From Gemmatimonadota bacterium (lineage in GTDB: Bacteria > Gemmatimonadota > Gemmatimonadetes > Gemmatimonadales > GWC2-71-9), in the NCBI GenBank assembly GCA_016874005.1, contig VGVQ01000008.1, positions 1 through 64,000 on the forward strand: 64,000 bases of DNA, in the 5' to 3' direction. Shown here in pieces: positions 36,469 through 45,308 of the stretch. The notes below the pieces were generated by a model. That model did not search any database and had not been told where the DNA came from. It saw nothing but the letters and a program-made list of their open reading frames with translations. Position numbers and translations under genes: made by a program. How positions within the stretch are numbered: the first letter of the stretch is position 1; each line of letters starts with the position of its first letter.

Positions 36469-38982
36469 TCAGGTCACGGCGCCAATGCCGTGCCGGGCAA
36501 AGAAGTCCTCCGCCGCAAGCCGAACCTGGCTCCATGGTCCCTCGACCCGGGCCGCCTTGGGGAGGCCAGCCAGGATCCAGCGACCGTAGCGCTTGGACAG
36601 CACTCGACTGTCGAGGAGCACCACGACGCCGACGTCTGACTTGGACCGGATCAGCCGCCCGAACCCTTGTTTGAGCTTGAGTGCGGCGTGCGGCAAGAGG
36701 TACTGGAAGAAGCCATCGGCCCCCGAATCGGCGAGCCGTTCCAAACGGGCCGCGGTGAGCGGCTCCGATGGTACCTTGAACGGGAGCTTGCAGAGCACCA
36801 AGGTCCGAAGGGCCCGGCCAGGTACGTCGACGCCTTCCCAGAACGAGTCGGTCCCGAGCAGGATGGCATTGCCGGCCTCGCGGAACCGCTTCAGGAGATT
36901 GTTGCGGGTTCCTTCTCCCTGTACCAGCAGTGGCCACCGATCGGCTAACTCGAGCCGGATCCGGGAGGCGCAGCGGCGGAGAGCGCCGTGGCTGGTGAAG
37001 AGAGCGAACATCCCGCCGTCCGAGGCGTAGGCGAGGTCGCGAATGACGGTCGCGACCGCGTCATCGTGGGCCGCCTCGTCCTCGCGAGGATCGGGAATGT
37101 CGTTCGGGATCCCGAAGAGAGACTGGTTCGGGTAGTCGAACGGCGAGGCCAGCATCTCGCGGACCGCCACCCTGCCGGGTGGCTCCGCCAGGCCCAGGCG
37201 CGACTCGAGAAAGTCGAATTCGCCTCCGGCGGCGAGCGTGGCGCTGGTGAGCACCACGGTGGCGTTGCGTTCGAAGATCAGCTCGCGAAGCAGCGGCGCC
37301 AGGTCGAGCGGTACGGCCGCCATGGACACGTTTTGCCCCTTCTGACCGGTGCGTTCGATCCACCGGACCACCGGGGCACCGCCACCGACCGGGCGGAGCG
37401 TCGCGTTCACCGCGTCGATGGCGGCCTCCAGTCGGCGCACCACGGCCTTCAGCTCTTGCACCAGCTGGAGCCGTCGCTCCCCCGCCTCCGCTTGGGCCAT
37501 CCGGTCGGCGACCGTCGCGACCCCGTCGGCAATCCGGCGGAAGGCCCCGGCGACGGCATCGACTTCGACCCCGAGTCCCTCCGCCCAGATATCGTCGCCG
37601 GCGAAGTCCTCCAGCAGGCGGATCGGTCCGCCGCCCTGAGCCGCCAGGCGGCCGTGGAGGCGGGCGAACATCGCCTCCGACGCGCCTCGGGCGTCGGCGA
37701 TCGCGGGAACGAGGTCCCGGCGGATCAGCTCGAGGCTGGCCCGCGAAAGCGAGTCGCCGTCGCGGGTCAGCTCCCGGACCAACGTCGGTACCAGTCCCCG
37801 CCCGGATCGCTCCAGGCGGCCCAGCGTCCGGCGCACCCCGACGGCCGAGAGTTGGGACCCGAGATGGGTCGCGGCGACGTCTTCGAGGTGGTGGGCTTCG
37901 TCGAGAATCAGCCGCTTGTAGGGCGGCAACACGGCGGCTTCTTCCCAGTTCTCGGAGGCGTGGCGCACCGCCAGGTCGGCGGCGAGCAGGTGATGGTTGA
38001 CCACCACGATGTCCGCTTCGGCGGCCCGCCGGCGGGCCTTGAACAAAAAACACCGGTCGAAACTGGGGCACTTGAGCCGGGGACAGAGGTCCGGTTCGGC
38101 GGCGACCTCGTCCCACACCTCCGAGCTGGGCGGGGTGGCCAGATCGCCTAACGTTCCGTCCGCGGTGCGGCCCGCCCATTCGGCCACCGCCATCAGCTCG
38201 CCGATTCGGCCCTCCTCGAGCAGCGACTGCTGCCCCGCCGTCGCCACCTCGAGCCGGGCCAGGCAGAGGTAGTTGCGCCAACCCTTGAGCAGGGCGAAGG
38301 TGGGCCGCCGCTCCTCGGTCCCGAGGGCTTGCCGAAGGAGCGGGAGGTCCTTGCCGACCAACTGCTCCTGGAGGTTGATGGTGTTGGTCGACACGATGGT
38401 CCGCTCGTCGTTGGCTCGGGCCCATTCCAGGGCCGGCACCAAGTACGCGAACGACTTGCCGACTCCGGTTCCGGCCTCGAGCAGGAGGACGCCGCCGTCG
38501 TTGTAGCCATCGGCGATGTAGGCGGCCATGTCGCGCTGGCTTTGCCGATCCTCGTACTGCCCCATCAGGCCAGCCACCGCCCCTCCTTCCGTGAGGAGGG
38601 CCACGACGTTCGGGGTATCGAGCTTGACCTCCACCCGTCCCTTCGGCACCTCCACCACCACGTAGAGAGCCAGGGCATCGTTGGAGATGATCCCGAATCC
38701 GATCCCGCCGTCATGGAGCCGGGCGGCCACGTCGAGGTCGGCGAACGACGGCTCCAACCGCCCCGACGGGTGATTGTGCAGCACCATGTCGCCCCGACGG
38801 GCCACGCCCGGGAGGGCCAGCACCGTCTCGGCCGTGCCCCGCGCCACCGCCCGAGCTTCGGCGACCGAGCCATCCGGGCCGATCGTCGCGACGAAGCACA
38901 CCTCGCGACCCTCCGCCCGGGCAATTTCGCCGGCGAGGTACTCGCGTACCGCGACCGGAAGGCGATCGGACTGGCCCGTCAT
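36469..38982 (-). CDS. DinG/XPD-like DNA helicase with N-terminal JAMM/RadC-like domain
   Basis: The helicase part (about residues 140-837) is superfamily 2 of the DinG type. It has Walker A EAGTGVGKS (169-177), four Cys in YLCL, DLCPRL, KCPSF and RCFLF that fit a 4Fe-4S site, LILDEAHHLED (DEAH box) and C-terminal motifs with LLGTDSFWEGVDVPG and KLKQGFGRLIRS. It should unwind DNA 5' to 3' in repair. Residues 1-130 are unusual: MVLHNHPSGRLEPSFADLDVA gives H69-x-H71-x7-S79-x2-D82, a perfect JAMM motif as in RadC, with E27 as a possible upstream acid. The usual DinG exonuclease domain is absent. The frame is continuous. Confidence 0.9.
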   Translation of the reverse strand: MTGQSDRLPVAVREYLAGEIARAEGREVCFVATIGPDGSVAEARAVARGTAETVLALPGVARRGDMVLHNHPSGRLEPSFADLDVAARLHDGGIGFGIISNDALALYVVVEVPKGRVEVKLDTPNVVALLTEGGAVAGLMGQYEDRQSQRDMAAYIADGYNDGGVLLLEAGTGVGKSFAYLVPALEWARANDERTIVSTNTINLQEQLVGKDLPLLRQALGTEERRPTFALLKGWRNYLCLARLEVATAGQQSLLEEGRIGELMAVAEWAGRTADGTLGDLATPPSSEVWDEVAAEPDLCPRLKCPSFDRCFLFKARRRAAEADIVVVNHHLLAADLAVRHASENWEEAAVLPPYKRLILDEAHHLEDVAATHLGSQLSAVGVRRTLGRLERSGRGLVPTLVRELTRDGDSLSRASLELIRRDLVPAIADARGASEAMFARLHGRLAAQGGGPIRLLEDFAGDDIWAEGLGVEVDAVAGAFRRIADGVATVADRMAQAEAGERRLQLVQELKAVVRRLEAAIDAVNATLRPVGGGAPVVRWIERTGQKGQNVSMAAVPLDLAPLLRELIFERNATVVLTSATLAAGGEFDFLESRLGLAEPPGRVAVREMLASPFDYPNQSLFGIPNDIPDPREDEAAHDDAVATVIRDLAYASDGGMFALFTSHGALRRCASRIRLELADRWPLLVQGEGTRNNLLKRFREAGNAILLGTDSFWEGVDVPGRALRTLVLCKLPFKVPSEPLTAARLERLADSGADGFFQYLLPHAALKLKQGFGRLIRSKSDVGVVVLLDSRVLSKRYGRWILAGLPKAARVEGPWSQVRLAAEDFFARHGIGAVT

Positions 38983-39037: not shown

Positions 39038-40321
39038 TCAGGTCTTGAGTTCCTTCTTCTTGGCGGCCGGGAACAAGACGTTGTTGAGGATCAGCCGGTA
39101 GCCCGGCGAGTGGGGATGGAGCGACAGATCGGTCGGCGCGTCGCCAATCTGGTGCTGGGGATCCTCCGGATCGTGGCCCCCGAAGAAGCACCAGGTCCCT
39201 TGGCCCCGTTCCCCTCGGATGTACTTCGCCCAGGGGGCCCCGGGTTCGTCGGCCAGCACCGTGACCCCCGGCTTGAGCCGAGCTTTGACGAACGAGGTCG
39301 TCAAGCCGTAGAAGTCCGGAATGACCTGACGGTGGTTTTGCACCAACATCGTCGCCACCGGGTCGATCTTGGCGCTGAAGTTGAAAAGCGTGAACGTACC
39401 TAACGGTTGGCGACGGTCGGGCGAGTTGACCTGATGCCCGTCGATGTCCGAATACAACGCCAGGGAGGGACTCGGCTCCAGCCTGGCACCCTGGAACGCC
39501 ATGGCCCGGTCCCACTGCATCTTGGCCGAGGCGTTGGCGTCCATCGGCGAGCCGTCGGCGTAGGAGGCCGCGATGTCGACGCCGTCGCTCGCCAGGGCCA
39601 AGTCCAAGGTCTCGGTCGCGGTACACATCGCGAACAGGAAGCCGCCCCGCTCCACGAACTGGGCGATCGCGTAGGCCACCGCCCGCTTCTCCGCCGGCAC
39701 ATCCCGGAACCCGAGCTTGCGCGCCATCCGTTCGTTCCGGTCGACCATCTCTTGAAGCCACGGCGCGCCGTTGTAGTTCAAAAAGAACTTCGAATACTGG
39801 CCGGTGAAGTCTTCGTGGTGGAGGTGGAGCCAGTCATAGTCGCGGAGCTTGTCGCCGACGACTTCCTCGTCCCAGATCTTGTCGAACTTGATCCCGGCAT
39901 ACTGGAGCGCCATGGTCACCGCGTCATCCCACGGCGCGGCGCTGGGCGGAGCGTACACGGCCACTTTCGGCGCCTTCTCGAGCGGCACCGCGTCCATGTT
40001 CGCTTCCCGGATCTCGGCCTTGATCTGGAACACGGTGCCCTGCTCCACCGGTTCCGCGGTGACCCCGGCCAAAGCGGCATCCCGAATCGTCGCGCTGTCT
40101 GCCGGAAGCAGAAACGACCCGTTTCGGTAGTTGAGGAGCCACTCCCCCTTCCCGGCCCGCTCCAGCAGCCGAAAGGCGAGCCCGTAGGCCTTGAGGTGAT
40201 CGGTCTGGGCCTCGTCCATGGGAACGAGCAGCTGGTCGGCGAAACGACCACGCCCCCCGAACCGAGGCGGTACCCCGACCAGGGCGGCACCCGCCGCCTC
40301 GATGAACGTCCGCCGCCTCAT
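39038..40321 (-). CDS. Exported conserved protein, function unknown
   Basis: This 427-residue protein has a Tat/Sec-like leader (MRRRTFIEAAGAALVG). I recall relatives in Bacteroidota and Gemmatimonadota that start LLVPMDEAQTDHLKAYGLAFRLL and contain a WLLNYRNGSFLLP segment. Pipelines often label these 'asparagine synthetase B', but no AsnB glutaminase or synthetase motif is present. A later block, HHEDFTGQYSKFFLNYNGAPW, and a GGFLFAMCTATETLD segment suggest a flavodoxin-like or ThuA-like layer, as in glutamine amidotransferase folds. It is the last gene of the DUF4159-DUF4175-TPR cluster, overlapping the TPR gene by ATGA. No function is proven. Confidence 0.65.
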   Translation of the reverse strand: MRRRTFIEAAGAALVGVPPRFGGRGRFADQLLVPMDEAQTDHLKAYGLAFRLLERAGKGEWLLNYRNGSFLLPADSATIRDAALAGVTAEPVEQGTVFQIKAEIREANMDAVPLEKAPKVAVYAPPSAAPWDDAVTMALQYAGIKFDKIWDEEVVGDKLRDYDWLHLHHEDFTGQYSKFFLNYNGAPWLQEMVDRNERMARKLGFRDVPAEKRAVAYAIAQFVERGGFLFAMCTATETLDLALASDGVDIAASYADGSPMDANASAKMQWDRAMAFQGARLEPSPSLALYSDIDGHQVNSPDRRQPLGTFTLFNFSAKIDPVATMLVQNHRQVIPDFYGLTTSFVKARLKPGVTVLADEPGAPWAKYIRGERGQGTWCFFGGHDPEDPQHQIGDAPTDLSLHPHSPGYRLILNNVLFPAAKKKELKT

Positions 40322-42048
40322 ACCGGGGGGATCGCCCCCTTGGCCACGTCGAGCAGCCGCCGGGCCTGCGGCGCGACCGCGCTGGTCGGGAAGTCGAGGA
40401 GAAGGGTTTCGAGCGTTTCGATCGCGAGGGGACGGCGGTCGGAATCCACCATCATCCGGGCCGCCTCGAGCGCCGCCGCCGCGGAGGCGGCGGGAACCTT
40501 GAGACCGACGACGACCCCGAACAATCGTTCCGCGGCGGCCCGGTCGCCCGCGGCCTGGCGGATCCGACCGGCGAGGAGCAGCATCTCCGCTTGGCCGTGG
40601 TCCTTCGGAAAGCCGGGCGCCAGCGACTCCAGATCGGCGGCCGCCCCGGCGCTATCCCGGCGCTCCAGCTTGAGCAAGGCGGCGCCTAACGCTGGCACGC
40701 TGTCGTCCTCGATGACCTGGATCAGCGCCAAGGCCGCGGTCCGGGACACCGCGGCCTCGCGCGCCCCGGCATATGGCCCCGCCTCCCGCAGCAACGACGC
40801 CGCGGCGGCGAGGTCGCCCTGATACAACCGGATCCGGCCTCGGACCGCGAAGCCCTCGATGGTGCTGTCTTGAGCCACCATCGCCTCGGCCCGGTCGAGC
40901 TTCCCGGCGCGGATCCATCCCTCCGCGACTCGGAGTTCGAGCTGGTGCCGCTCCTCGGTTCCCAGCACTCCCTTGAGCTGTTCGAATTGCTTGGACGCCT
41001 CGTCCATCTTGCCCTCGGACACCAGCACCGACACCAGGGTCGACGTCGCCGAGGCAGCCATCGTGGCGGAGACCCGTTGGTCACTGGCGAGCCGACCCAG
41101 CATTCGTCGAGCCGAGCCCTGGTCACCCGCATCCGAGTAGGCCTGGGCCGCTTCGAGCCAATAGCGGGTCGACTGGTTCGGTACCCGGGTGGCGAGCAAC
41201 TCCAAAGCAACCCCTCGGGCCATCGCCGTCTCCCGTCCCGCGAGGGCCCGAAGCTCGTCGATGCCCTCCTGGAGCGCCTCGACCCCCGCCTCCGACAGCA
41301 ACGGCATCGCCCGCTCCAGCCGTCGGATCCCACCGACCGGGTCACCCCACCGGATCGTCAGGGTTCCGGCGAGCCGTTCCCCCAACGCGGTCTTGGACTG
41401 TTCGAGGGCCCGCAGCACGGTGGGCCGACCCACCACCGGCACCTGGCCCAACATCGACACGGCGGCCGACCGATACCCCGGGATCTTCCCGACCGCCACG
41501 AGCCACTCGCGAACCGCCGCCGGATAGTCCCCTTCGATGGTCGCCAGCTGGGCCAGCTCCCCGGCCAGGAGTTCCCCGCCGAGCCGGCTTCGGCCAAGCT
41601 GATATGCGGCCTTGGCCTGGGCCCGATCCCGAGCGGCGAGCGCGGCCGATCCCCATTCCTGATACGGTGCTTCGGACTTGGGTTCCAGGGCTGTCCACCG
41701 ATCGATGATGGCCGCTACGGTATCGGCCCGGCCCGCCGCGGCGTACACCCGAACCGCGATCCCGTACAGCGCCGACGACGGTTCCCCGCTGGCCAGCGCG
41801 CGCCGCAGCTCCGGTACCATGTCCGGCACTTTGGCCTGGGACGTCAGGGTCCGTTCGAGACCCAGGAGCGCCCCCAGATCGGCCGGTCTCGTCGCCAGGA
41901 TGCCGCGATAGAGCTCGGCCGCTTGGGCGTGGAGTCCGCGGCGTTCGAGATCGAAGGCCCGGGCGGCGGGGTCCGCTTGCTGGGCCGACATCGCTCTCCC
42001 AGCCACCACCAGGGTGGCGAGGGCGACCACCGTCACGCCCCGCGTCAT
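40318..42048 (-). CDS. Secreted TPR-repeat protein
   Basis: This 576-residue protein has a signal peptide (cleavage near AMSAQQ) and about a dozen TPR-like helical pairs. Examples are AFDLERRGLHAQAAELYRGILATRP near the N-terminus and AEMLLLAGRIRQAAGDRAAAERLFGVVVGL near the C-terminus. TPR arrays bind partners, so a periplasmic scaffold is the likely role. It overlaps both neighbours by ATGA (DUF4175 upstream, the exported protein downstream), which suggests translation as one unit. The partner is not known. Confidence 0.75.
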   Translation of the reverse strand: MTRGVTVVALATLVVAGRAMSAQQADPAARAFDLERRGLHAQAAELYRGILATRPADLGALLGLERTLTSQAKVPDMVPELRRALASGEPSSALYGIAVRVYAAAGRADTVAAIIDRWTALEPKSEAPYQEWGSAALAARDRAQAKAAYQLGRSRLGGELLAGELAQLATIEGDYPAAVREWLVAVGKIPGYRSAAVSMLGQVPVVGRPTVLRALEQSKTALGERLAGTLTIRWGDPVGGIRRLERAMPLLSEAGVEALQEGIDELRALAGRETAMARGVALELLATRVPNQSTRYWLEAAQAYSDAGDQGSARRMLGRLASDQRVSATMAASATSTLVSVLVSEGKMDEASKQFEQLKGVLGTEERHQLELRVAEGWIRAGKLDRAEAMVAQDSTIEGFAVRGRIRLYQGDLAAAASLLREAGPYAGAREAAVSRTAALALIQVIEDDSVPALGAALLKLERRDSAGAAADLESLAPGFPKDHGQAEMLLLAGRIRQAAGDRAAAERLFGVVVGLKVPAASAAAALEAARMMVDSDRRPLAIETLETLLLDFPTSAVAPQARRLLDVAKGAIPPV

Positions 42049-45000
42049 TGCCGAGTTCGGCTCGCCGCCAGCCGGCGGAAATAGTCGGTCACCAGGCGTC
42101 GTTCCTGAGGCGAGAGACGCTGCAGGTCCTCCCAGCTCGGGAGCCGAAGGCGACCCTCGCCGTCGAGAAGCCGTCGAAGCGGCCCCGGCACGCTGAGGCT
42201 GTCGCCCTTGGCAGCGGTGCTCTCACGGTCCTTCTTCTCATCCTCCTCTTGGCCTTGCAGGGTCCGGCCCGCATCGAGCATTCGCTTGAAGAGTCGCTCC
42301 TGTCGGTCGACGGTCTCCCGATCGAGCCGGCCGGCCTCGAGCTTGCGAGCCAACTCGCGGGCCTCCTCGGCGAGGTCTCGGGTCCCGGGGGCCTGGGTTT
42401 CCGCCCGAAGCCGCTCCAGTTCTTCCGCCAGCTGCCGCTGCCGTTGGGCCATCGCCTGCATCTGCGCCTGCATTCTTTGTTGGTTCGCCAACATCGACAG
42501 CAGTTCGTTGCCCTCCTGGCTGATACTCCCTTGTTGTCCGGCCAGCTGTTGCATCCGCTGCATCGCCTCCGCCAATCCGGATCCGGATGACGACCCACTC
42601 ACGTCGTCACGAGAACGGAGCATCTGGTAGGCCGCCACGTTCAAGGCATCCACCGCTTCACCGGCCTGCTCGGCGGCTTCCCGGAGGTTGGCCGACGCCG
42701 ACGACACGGCTTCCCGAGCCTTGGCCATCTGGAGGCGAGCCTGCACCAGCGCGGTCCCGATTTGGGGGGAGACGAGCGCGTTCTTGCCGCCGACCGAGAG
42801 GATCTGCTCGAGGATTTTCTGGACCCCCTCTTCGATCAGCCCCTGTTCGTGCCGAGACGCGTTCAGGGTGGCCCCGCGACCGACGCTGTGGGCAACCGCC
42901 AACTGACGCTGGCTCAGGCGAGCCGTTTCCGCCAAGGCGCGGTCCAGCGCGGCGATGACCTCTTCCCGCCATTCTTCCTGCTGCTCCTCGCGTTGCTCCT
43001 TGACGTCCTGCTCGATCTGCCCCATTTGCTCCGCGGCCCGCTCGCCCTGCTTCTTCGCCTGCTGCCGCTTCCCGCCCTTGGCGGACTTCGCCGCCTCTCG
43101 CATCTGTTGGGCGGCCTGACGGGCATTATTGGCGTTCTCCTGGAGGGCCTCCTGTCGCTCGCCCTCCTCGAGCCGCTTGGCTGCCTGGTCGAGTCCCTGC
43201 GCCAGCGAGTCCGTCCGCTCCGCCAGGCCCTCCTCCCGCGCTGCCGCCTGCGAGCTGTCGGCCGTGGCGACCCGCTCGTTCCAATCCCGCTGCTGCTCGG
43301 CAAGTTCTTTCGATTCTTGCTGGAGGCCGCCCAGCTCGCCTTCCAAGGCCGCCCGTTTGAACAGCTCTCGGGTCCGCTCCAGCGCTTCTTTCAAGCGCTG
43401 TTGGGCCTCGGCCAACTTTCGAAGAGCGTCTTTGGTCGCCTGGGGATCGAGGTTCTTGAGCGCCTCGCGAAGCTCGTCGAGGCGCTGGCGCATTTCGGGG
43501 GTGAGGGCCTTGTCGAGCTGGGCGCGGATTTCCTCCAGCTGCCGCTGAAATGCCGAATCCGCGATCCCGCCCCGCTCCGCGGCCTCTTCGAGATTCTCGA
43601 GCCGCTCCCTCGCCTCCTCGGCCCGGTCCATCAGCTCCTGCTGGTCGCGGGCGACCTGTTCCGCCCGTTTGGCGTCGTCGAACCCCAGGGTCGGGTCGTT
43701 GCGCTCCGATGCGTTGGCGCGGTTGCGTTCCCGGCTCAGGTCTTCGGTCTGCCGCTGGAGGCTGCGGCTTTGGGCAACGAGCGAGTCGATCTTCTTACCG
43801 AACTGCTCGGTCGCGTTCCGCTGCTCGGCCCGCGCCTCGGCGGTCGTCGGAACGTAGAGGACGAAGGTCGCCGAGCGACCCAGGTTCACCGCCGGCGCGT
43901 TGTCCTTGGCTTGGACCCAGTAGTGCATGGTGTCGCCTGGCGCGAGACCGAAACCGGCCAGCTCGAGCCGGGTCGACAACAGCGCCCGATCGCCGGTGGA
44001 GGGCGGCAGTGGCACCGTGAGGACTACCGGCGCTCGGCTGCCCCGTTGGACCGCGGCCACGACTTGGACCCCGGCGATTCCGTGATCGTCCCGAACGTCG
44101 ATCACCATCGCCAGCTCCTTCCCGAGCACGGCCATGGTATCCTGGCCCGGTACCGGAACCTCCACGATGGGCGGCGCGTCGGGAACCACGATGACGGGAA
44201 TGCGAATCGGGTCGCCTCCGAGCGGGGCTCCATCGGCCATCTCGAGCCCGAGCCGGAGCTCGCCCGACGCCCGTGGCACCACCAGGCCAGTGAAGGTCCG
44301 GTCGCCCGCGTCGAGGTCGAACCGGGCCGTCCCAAGGGTGAACTGGGCCGCCCGAAGCAGTGCCGTCGTCTCGCCAGCCACCGCGATCCGGGTCCCCGCC
44401 GGCAACAGCAACGTGTCGCCCGTCGTGGGCAGGGGCTCGTCCTCGAGCCCGAGATAGCTCGGGTACTTCGCGGTGAGGGCCAGCGCCCCCAAGAAGGCGG
44501 GCAGTCGAACTTTGACGAAGACCGTATCGGAGGTTCGCCCGCCGGACGCCGCGAAGTAGTAGACGTCACCGGTGAGCGGTCCGCTCGTCAGTGTCGCTCG
44601 GCCAGCCGAGTCGAGCGTGACCGGTTCGGCTCGCCACGATTCGCCGACCGACCTGGTCCACAGTTCCGCTCCGGGCCGTCCCACCGCGACGATGTCGAGC
44701 CGGACGCCCTCACCCCGATCGACCAGTACCCTGTCGGCCGCCAGGCGGACCGGCGCCAGAAAAGTTGCCCAAGCCTCGCCCGGCGACCAAAGCAATGACG
44801 CCGGACCGGAAGTAGTTCCGGCTCCCAGGAGCGTGGTCAGCGCGACGGCGAGGGCAACCCCACCGAATCGCCCCCGTTTCGCCCACCGTTCTCTCTCGGG
44901 CGCCAGGGAGGCCTCACCTCGGGTTCGGATCGCCCCCGCCGCCGTTCGGTCCGCCGCCGCCAACAACTCGGGGCTGGTGCCGTCGGCCGGATCCGCGAGC

Positions 45001-45308
45001 ACACCGCCCACCGAGCCGCGTCGCCACCCATCTCGCCCTTCGAGCCGCTCCGCCAGCGGTCCCGGCTCGAAACGCCGGATCAGCCGGTAGCTCGACAGGG
45101 AGGCGAGCCCAACGACAATGAGCGCGCCGGCCCAAGCCAGCGGGACCCAGAGCGGACTCGAGACCACCCCCAGTCGCGCCAGCCACGCTGGCACCGCCAG
45201 CGCGACGAGCCCGGCCGCCAGGCCGGCCACCAGGACCGCCGCAACCCCGGCGCGCCGAAGCGGTCTCCCGATCTCGGCGAGCGCCCGGGCGGTCTCGGGG
45301 CTCCTCAC
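42045..45308 (-). CDS. DUF4175-family large membrane protein with long coiled coil
   Basis: The 1087-residue protein has two N-terminal spans (about 19-42 and 52-75) plus a third near 150, then a periplasmic beta-rich part (about 200-500). A very long charged coiled coil follows (about 500-1000, rich in Glu, Gln, Arg and Ala), and the C-terminus ends VTDYFRRLAASRTRQ. This is the DUF4175/BatA-like layout found beside DUF4159 genes. It may span from the inner membrane into the periplasm as a scaffold. GTG 45308 overlaps the DUF4159 stop. No enzyme motif is visible. Confidence 0.75.
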   Translation of the reverse strand: MRSPETARALAEIGRPLRRAGVAAVLVAGLAAGLVALAVPAWLARLGVVSSPLWVPLAWAGALIVVGLASLSSYRLIRRFEPGPLAERLEGRDGWRRGSVGGVLADPADGTSPELLAAADRTAAGAIRTRGEASLAPERERWAKRGRFGGVALAVALTTLLGAGTTSGPASLLWSPGEAWATFLAPVRLAADRVLVDRGEGVRLDIVAVGRPGAELWTRSVGESWRAEPVTLDSAGRATLTSGPLTGDVYYFAASGGRTSDTVFVKVRLPAFLGALALTAKYPSYLGLEDEPLPTTGDTLLLPAGTRIAVAGETTALLRAAQFTLGTARFDLDAGDRTFTGLVVPRASGELRLGLEMADGAPLGGDPIRIPVIVVPDAPPIVEVPVPGQDTMAVLGKELAMVIDVRDDHGIAGVQVVAAVQRGSRAPVVLTVPLPPSTGDRALLSTRLELAGFGLAPGDTMHYWVQAKDNAPAVNLGRSATFVLYVPTTAEARAEQRNATEQFGKKIDSLVAQSRSLQRQTEDLSRERNRANASERNDPTLGFDDAKRAEQVARDQQELMDRAEEARERLENLEEAAERGGIADSAFQRQLEEIRAQLDKALTPEMRQRLDELREALKNLDPQATKDALRKLAEAQQRLKEALERTRELFKRAALEGELGGLQQESKELAEQQRDWNERVATADSSQAAAREEGLAERTDSLAQGLDQAAKRLEEGERQEALQENANNARQAAQQMREAAKSAKGGKRQQAKKQGERAAEQMGQIEQDVKEQREEQQEEWREEVIAALDRALAETARLSQRQLAVAHSVGRGATLNASRHEQGLIEEGVQKILEQILSVGGKNALVSPQIGTALVQARLQMAKAREAVSSASANLREAAEQAGEAVDALNVAAYQMLRSRDDVSGSSSGSGLAEAMQRMQQLAGQQGSISQEGNELLSMLANQQRMQAQMQAMAQRQRQLAEELERLRAETQAPGTRDLAEEARELARKLEAGRLDRETVDRQERLFKRMLDAGRTLQGQEEDEKKDRESTAAKGDSLSVPGPLRRLLDGEGRLRLPSWEDLQRLSPQERRLVTDYFRRLAASRTRQ

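Follow-up and report, generated by a model that had tools for sequence, protein, structure and literature searches.

The locus considered here raises the question of what a RadC-like JAB/JAMM domain does when it is joined, in a single reading frame, to a DinG-type helicase. The window that we analysed is a 64,000-nucleotide stretch of Gemmatimonadota DNA (contig VGVQ01000008.1, assembly GCA_016874005.1), and a preliminary description of it, made from the letters alone, had placed such a fusion at positions 36469-38982. That reading is borne out by a Pfam RadC match (PF04002), by the predicted fold and by the helicase families matched: an uninterrupted ORF of 837 amino acids with an ATG start occupies exactly this interval on the minus strand, and full-length homologues at 52-79% identity occur in the same taxonomic order as the source genome. 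The features of the gene, with the evidence for each, are as follows.

36469..38982, minus strand: complete gene, Fe-S DEAH helicase of DinG/YoaA type with a RadC-like JAB domain (ORF; full-length homologues)
38593..38982, minus strand: N-terminal RadC-type JAB/JAMM domain, residues 1-130 (PF04002; profile match to 2qlc; AlphaFold2 and Foldseek)
38902..38904, minus strand: E27, which would be the catalytic acid of a JAMM site (kept in 99/99 sequences with the domain)
38770..38778, minus strand: H69-N70-H71, putative metal-binding histidines (99/99; aligned with HNHPSG of RadC 2qlc)
38737..38748, minus strand: S79-x2-D82, the serine of the JAMM motif and an aspartate that may bind metal (intact in 99/99)
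36493..38580, minus strand: helicase part, residues 135-830 (NCBIfam YoaA; Foldseek match to DinG 6fwr)
38452..38472, minus strand: Walker A GTGVGKS, residues 171-177 (conserved in the alignment)
38050..38265, minus strand: Fe-S domain with cysteines C240, C300, C305 and C311 (conserved in the alignment)
37891..37902, minus strand: DEAH box, residues 361-364 (alignment)
36556..37041, minus strand: Helicase_C_2 domain, residues 648-809 (PF13307, 1.1e-42; the only one found in the genome)

The possibility that an error in assembly or gene calling produced the fusion is refuted by independent genomes, and we regard its probability as negligible. We found no support for it; a few relatives from metagenome-assembled genomes (MAGs) are frameshifted or cut by a contig end (for example, L056 and L024), but the continuous frame recurs in dozens of independent assemblies, including those of Geobacter argillaceus and Geomonas.

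Family and fold of the N-terminal domain

The Pfam RadC family (PF04002) matches residues 11-102. Searched on residues 1-135 alone, the match has E = 5.9e-8 and 33.1 bits (gathering score 22.1), and it exceeds the same gathering score in the full protein (E = 6.5e-6, 26.5 bits); it is present in 52 of the 52 family members scanned. The NCBIfam RadC equivalog, which models the whole protein, gives 25.3-30.9 bits and misses its cut-off of 180; judged by these scores, the helicase fusion contains a RadC domain without being a RadC protein. A search with a family profile retrieves the crystal structure of RadC (2qlc, 1.5e-7) and aligns HNHPSG...PSxxD with the equivalent stretch of that structure.

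With 52 family members as input, AlphaFold2 gave a model of residues 1-135 (mean pLDDT 88.6, pTM 0.78, with the first residues and approximately residues 50-60 poorly modelled). Each of the top five solved structures matched by Foldseek is a chain of 2qlc, the RadC of Chlorobium, the best of them with E 3.4e-6 and a TM of about 0.5, indicating a related structure rather than a close one; the next neighbours are JAMM proteins, including CSN5, BubCD, Rpn11 and PfJAMM1. In the model H69 ends the strand formed by residues 65-70 and D82 lies near the start of the following helix (residues 80-91), a predicted placement that is the arrangement of JAMM enzymes. The family search and the structure prediction that had been proposed for residues 1-135 thus both returned RadC and a JAB fold.

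Conservation and evolutionary rate

The alignment holds 106 sequences, of which 99 are taken as domain-bearing; the other seven comprise six that are contig-cut or frame-broken (L024, L029, L058, L059, L056 and L061) and one domain-less helicase (L030). The first half of the RadC domain of L056 sits in another frame, marking a frameshift, and the N-terminus of L061 is divergent. In the gene, H69-x-H71-x7-S79-x2-D82 and E27 ahead of it stand just as they had been described, and none of the five residues (E27, H69, H71, S79 and D82) is altered in any of the 99 domain-bearing sequences, which come from Gemmatimonadota, Desulfuromonadales, KSB1, Dadabacteria and other groups. The helicase motifs are conserved as well, and the Fe-S cysteines C240, C300, C305 and C311 are each kept in 101-105 of the 106.

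In comparisons between congeners, the RadC domain has a pN of 0.17-0.25, as against 0.08-0.14 for the helicase, at similar synonymous divergence; the rate of the domain at amino-acid-changing sites is about 1.5 to 2 times that of the helicase. Such a pattern, a domain under loose constraint that strictly keeps its active site, suggests catalysis.

The helicase part

The label 'DinG' originally given to this part stands insofar as it is an Fe-S DEAH helicase matched by DinG models, but NCBIfam YoaA is the top-scoring family (564.6 bits, 3.2e-169, residues 129-814) and the DinG models score lower; the cut-off of the YoaA equivalog NF053712 (680 bits) is not reached. YoaA and DinG models are matched by all 58 of the relatives scanned. 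The full-length predicted model (pLDDT 89.3) has DinG 6fwr as its best solved match by Foldseek (E = 3.1e-44) and terminates in a helix formed by residues 817-830. No exonuclease family (DnaQ/DEDD) was matched at the N-terminus in the Pfam and NCBIfam scans. PADLOC matches to the type IV CRISPR DinG reflect the common helicase, and a CRISPR or defence reading was dropped.

Distribution and apparent loss of the domain

The same fusion was sought in other Gemmatimonadota and found to be widespread: 67 of the 81 genomes that are at least 90% complete have a homologue, and nearly all of these homologues extend into the N-terminal domain. In a GTDB scan, Desulfuromonadales, KSB1 and Dadabacteria also have the fusion (34-42% identity), with Geobacter argillaceus (L074) and Geomonas (L083 and L104) as named-strain carriers, and also in single MAGs filed under other groups. 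Near-identical proteins occur in MAGs filed as deltaproteobacterium and Dadabacteria (L063 and L064), and the copy in an 'Acidimicrobiia' MAG (L079) groups with KSB1 and Dadabacteria; misbinning or mislabelling is possible in both cases. Phage carriers of the fusion were also sought: in the five records inspected out of 42, the phage helicases match from residue 124 or later, without the domain.

In the helicase tree, a fully supported branch separates Gemmatimonadota from the rest, and the domain occurs on both sides of it, so the RadC-helicase architecture is old. Helicases without the domain occur in families f2 (G029, G033/G035 and G040) and f5 (G060 and G089) and call for three or more changes on branches with good support; the best tree has four. 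From the placement of these sequences, the RadC domain seems to have disappeared on three or more occasions with the helicase retained, which would make it an accessory domain. Where the helicase lacks a JAB domain, a search of the genome for a relocated JAB copy gave only weak matches of the canonical RadC type. Several genera of family f2 (L114, L115, L116 and L117) have short, unrelated N-termini from which the RadC domain is cleanly absent, and in L120 (G089:C1:1157500-1161800) a different N-terminal extension, apparently partly repeated, replaces the domain.

Genomic context

A whole-genome search identified the protein as the sole Helicase_C_2 (DinG/XPD-type) protein of the source genome, which also has a separate canonical RadC (G000:C3:86727-87086). 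HolC (PF04364) was not found in the source assembly, which is 97% complete; the Escherichia coli and Caulobacter controls were positive.

We clustered the ORFs around 81 loci and found among them no gene partner conserved across phyla. The clusters that do span phyla consist of the gene itself, its overlapping or antisense frames, or a downstream aminotransferase-type gene whose cluster has only three members outside Gemmatimonadota. Three upstream minus-strand genes (39038-40321, 40318-42048 and 42045-45308) lie nearby in 20-25 Gemmatimonadota loci and, among the 81 loci, near the helicase gene in no other phylum. They have no Pfam match, weak TPR-type hits occur in the middle gene only, and no functional link is indicated. 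These genes are tightly packed, with overlapping ends and starts, and the first opens with a twin-arginine-like stretch (MRRRTF).

Proposed function and alternatives

Sequence and predicted structure establish that the domain is present with its site residues intact, that the helicase motifs are in place and that the architecture is old and broadly distributed; on these we base the proposal that the protein would be a YoaA/XPD-type Fe-S DNA helicase with its N-terminal RadC domain acting as a zinc-dependent hydrolase. By homology to DinG, YoaA and XPD, the helicase part would use ATP to translocate 5'-3' on single-stranded DNA and would open forks or flaps at replication blocks, and the RadC domain might hydrolyse a target on the strand laid bare by unwinding. 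We hold this reading as a whole (a RadC-like DinG in which a YoaA-like helicase is combined with a zinc hydrolase for the exposed strand or an adduct) with modest confidence, and regard it as probable that the domain is a catalytic metal hydrolase.

If the domain is such a hydrolase, its substrate would by analogy be, on balance, nucleic acid, the likeliest form being a nucleic acid or a modified DNA end; protein or an adduct is a less likely but real candidate, and any other substrate is improbable. The nucleic-acid substrate is made likelier by the position of the RadC domain, which corresponds to where ExoDinG and EndoDinG carry their nuclease domains, and by the reported lack of a groove for the ubiquitin tail in RadC-type JAB domains (PMC5512222, PMC3482391). 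Against it, of the JAMM enzymes returned by the fold search, the closest that have been characterised cleave isopeptide bonds, a point in favour of protein rather than DNA; a common fold does not by itself decide the substrate. The literature searched yielded no RadC-family enzyme with a proven substrate, and published opinion is split between a metalloprotease-like topology (PMC11981726) and nuclease activity or nucleic-acid processing (in 2012 and 2017; PMC3482391, PMC5512222). Also counting against the proposal are the apparent losses of the domain, which would make it accessory, and the lack of a cross-phylum gene partner that would indicate a pathway.

Two readings compete with this proposal. 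In one, which follows the preliminary description, the domain would be a peptidase acting on proteins that block the helicase, or on the protein component of DNA-protein crosslinks that do so. Its structural neighbours after RadC are the JAMM proteins CSN5, Rpn11, BubCD and PfJAMM1, a DALI search in Cheng 2025 (PMC11981726) likewise returned metalloproteases of similar topology and no nucleases, and a protease linked to a helicase would make mechanistic sense. The ubiquitin-tail groove is, however, said to be absent from RadC-type JAB domains (PMC5512222), no neighbour, and hence no conjugation partner, is conserved across phyla, and Pfam and NCBIfam scans recognised no adduct-binding module; we consider a peptidase unlikely, although it deserves serious attention. 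The more specific picture of a single-chain bacterial machine for unwinding and adduct removal, in which an active zinc protease or hydrolase would strip protein or covalent adducts from the unwound strand, strikes us as quite doubtful. In the other reading the domain would have no enzymatic role and would serve for docking or regulation as a module stabilised by zinc, one example being a substitute for the recruitment of YoaA by HolC. JAB folds often serve as scaffolds, HolC was not found in the source genome and the domain is dispensable in several lineages, all of which fit docking; but scaffold versions of the fold usually lose site residues, whereas all five are intact here in 99/99 sequences, including E27, and in JAMM enzymes the glutamate is the catalytic acid, not a metal ligand. 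The invariance of the acid and the metal ligands makes a docking role less likely, and we judge it rather improbable. The role of RadC domains is a long-standing question, and a version tied to a helicase and with an invariant active site narrows where the substrate is to be sought; the apparent repeated domain losses within Gemmatimonadota provide natural controls.

Comparison with known systems

The preliminary description had held that known DinG proteins carry no such domain, which is contradicted by the literature: section 3.8 of Cheng 2025 (PMC11981726) divides DinG into ten subgroups and names one of them 'RadC-like DinG', and fusions of RadC to DinG/RAD3-like helicases were mentioned in 2017, with nucleic-acid processing as the inferred role (PMC5512222). 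The section describes a YoaA-like architecture, E/H/H/D residues and genomes without HolC, and states that no experimental work on the subgroup exists. Its members (for example, that of Desulfuromonas soudanensis) share with the gene here an N-terminal RadC-like domain bearing the E, H, H and D residues, a YoaA-like helicase with Fe-S and Arch domains and the absence of HolC, and the helix that ends the full model may correspond to their C-terminal helix; we found no architectural difference, the present copy coming from Gemmatimonadota. One ORF joins PF04002 (residues 11-102) to PF13307 (residues 648-809), as the predicted fold also indicates; the residues of a putative metal centre (E27/H69/H71/D82) and of a predicted Fe-S domain (four cysteines) are present, and the genome has no detectable HolC. 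By sequence and model, the gene is a member of this already named subgroup.

The architecture is thus real and old but was catalogued before (mentioned in 2017, named in 2025), which makes the find ordinary in itself. What is new is its spread in Gemmatimonadota, its sharing with Desulfuromonadales, KSB1 and Dadabacteria, the apparent repeated domain loss and the context in the source genome (a lone Helicase_C_2 protein, no detectable HolC, a separate RadC and no cross-phylum partner).

Among other relatives, E. coli YoaA stands for the curated helicase family that comes closest (564.6 bits, residues 129-814) but has no RadC domain and partners HolC, which was not found in the source genome, and the score here does not reach the equivalog threshold of 680. 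E. coli DinG (6fwr) shares the Fe-S DEAH helicase fold, being the best solved match of the full model, but likewise has no RadC domain, and its family scores below that of YoaA. ExoDinG of Firmicutes (for example, Staphylococcus aureus DinG, 8zef) also combines the helicase with an extra N-terminal domain of catalytic type, which in that case is a DnaQ/DEDD exonuclease that the gene here lacks. Canonical RadC (2qlc) has the JAB fold with HNHPSG and PSxxD in common with the N-terminal domain, but stands unattached to a helicase, and a separate copy of it is present in the same genome.
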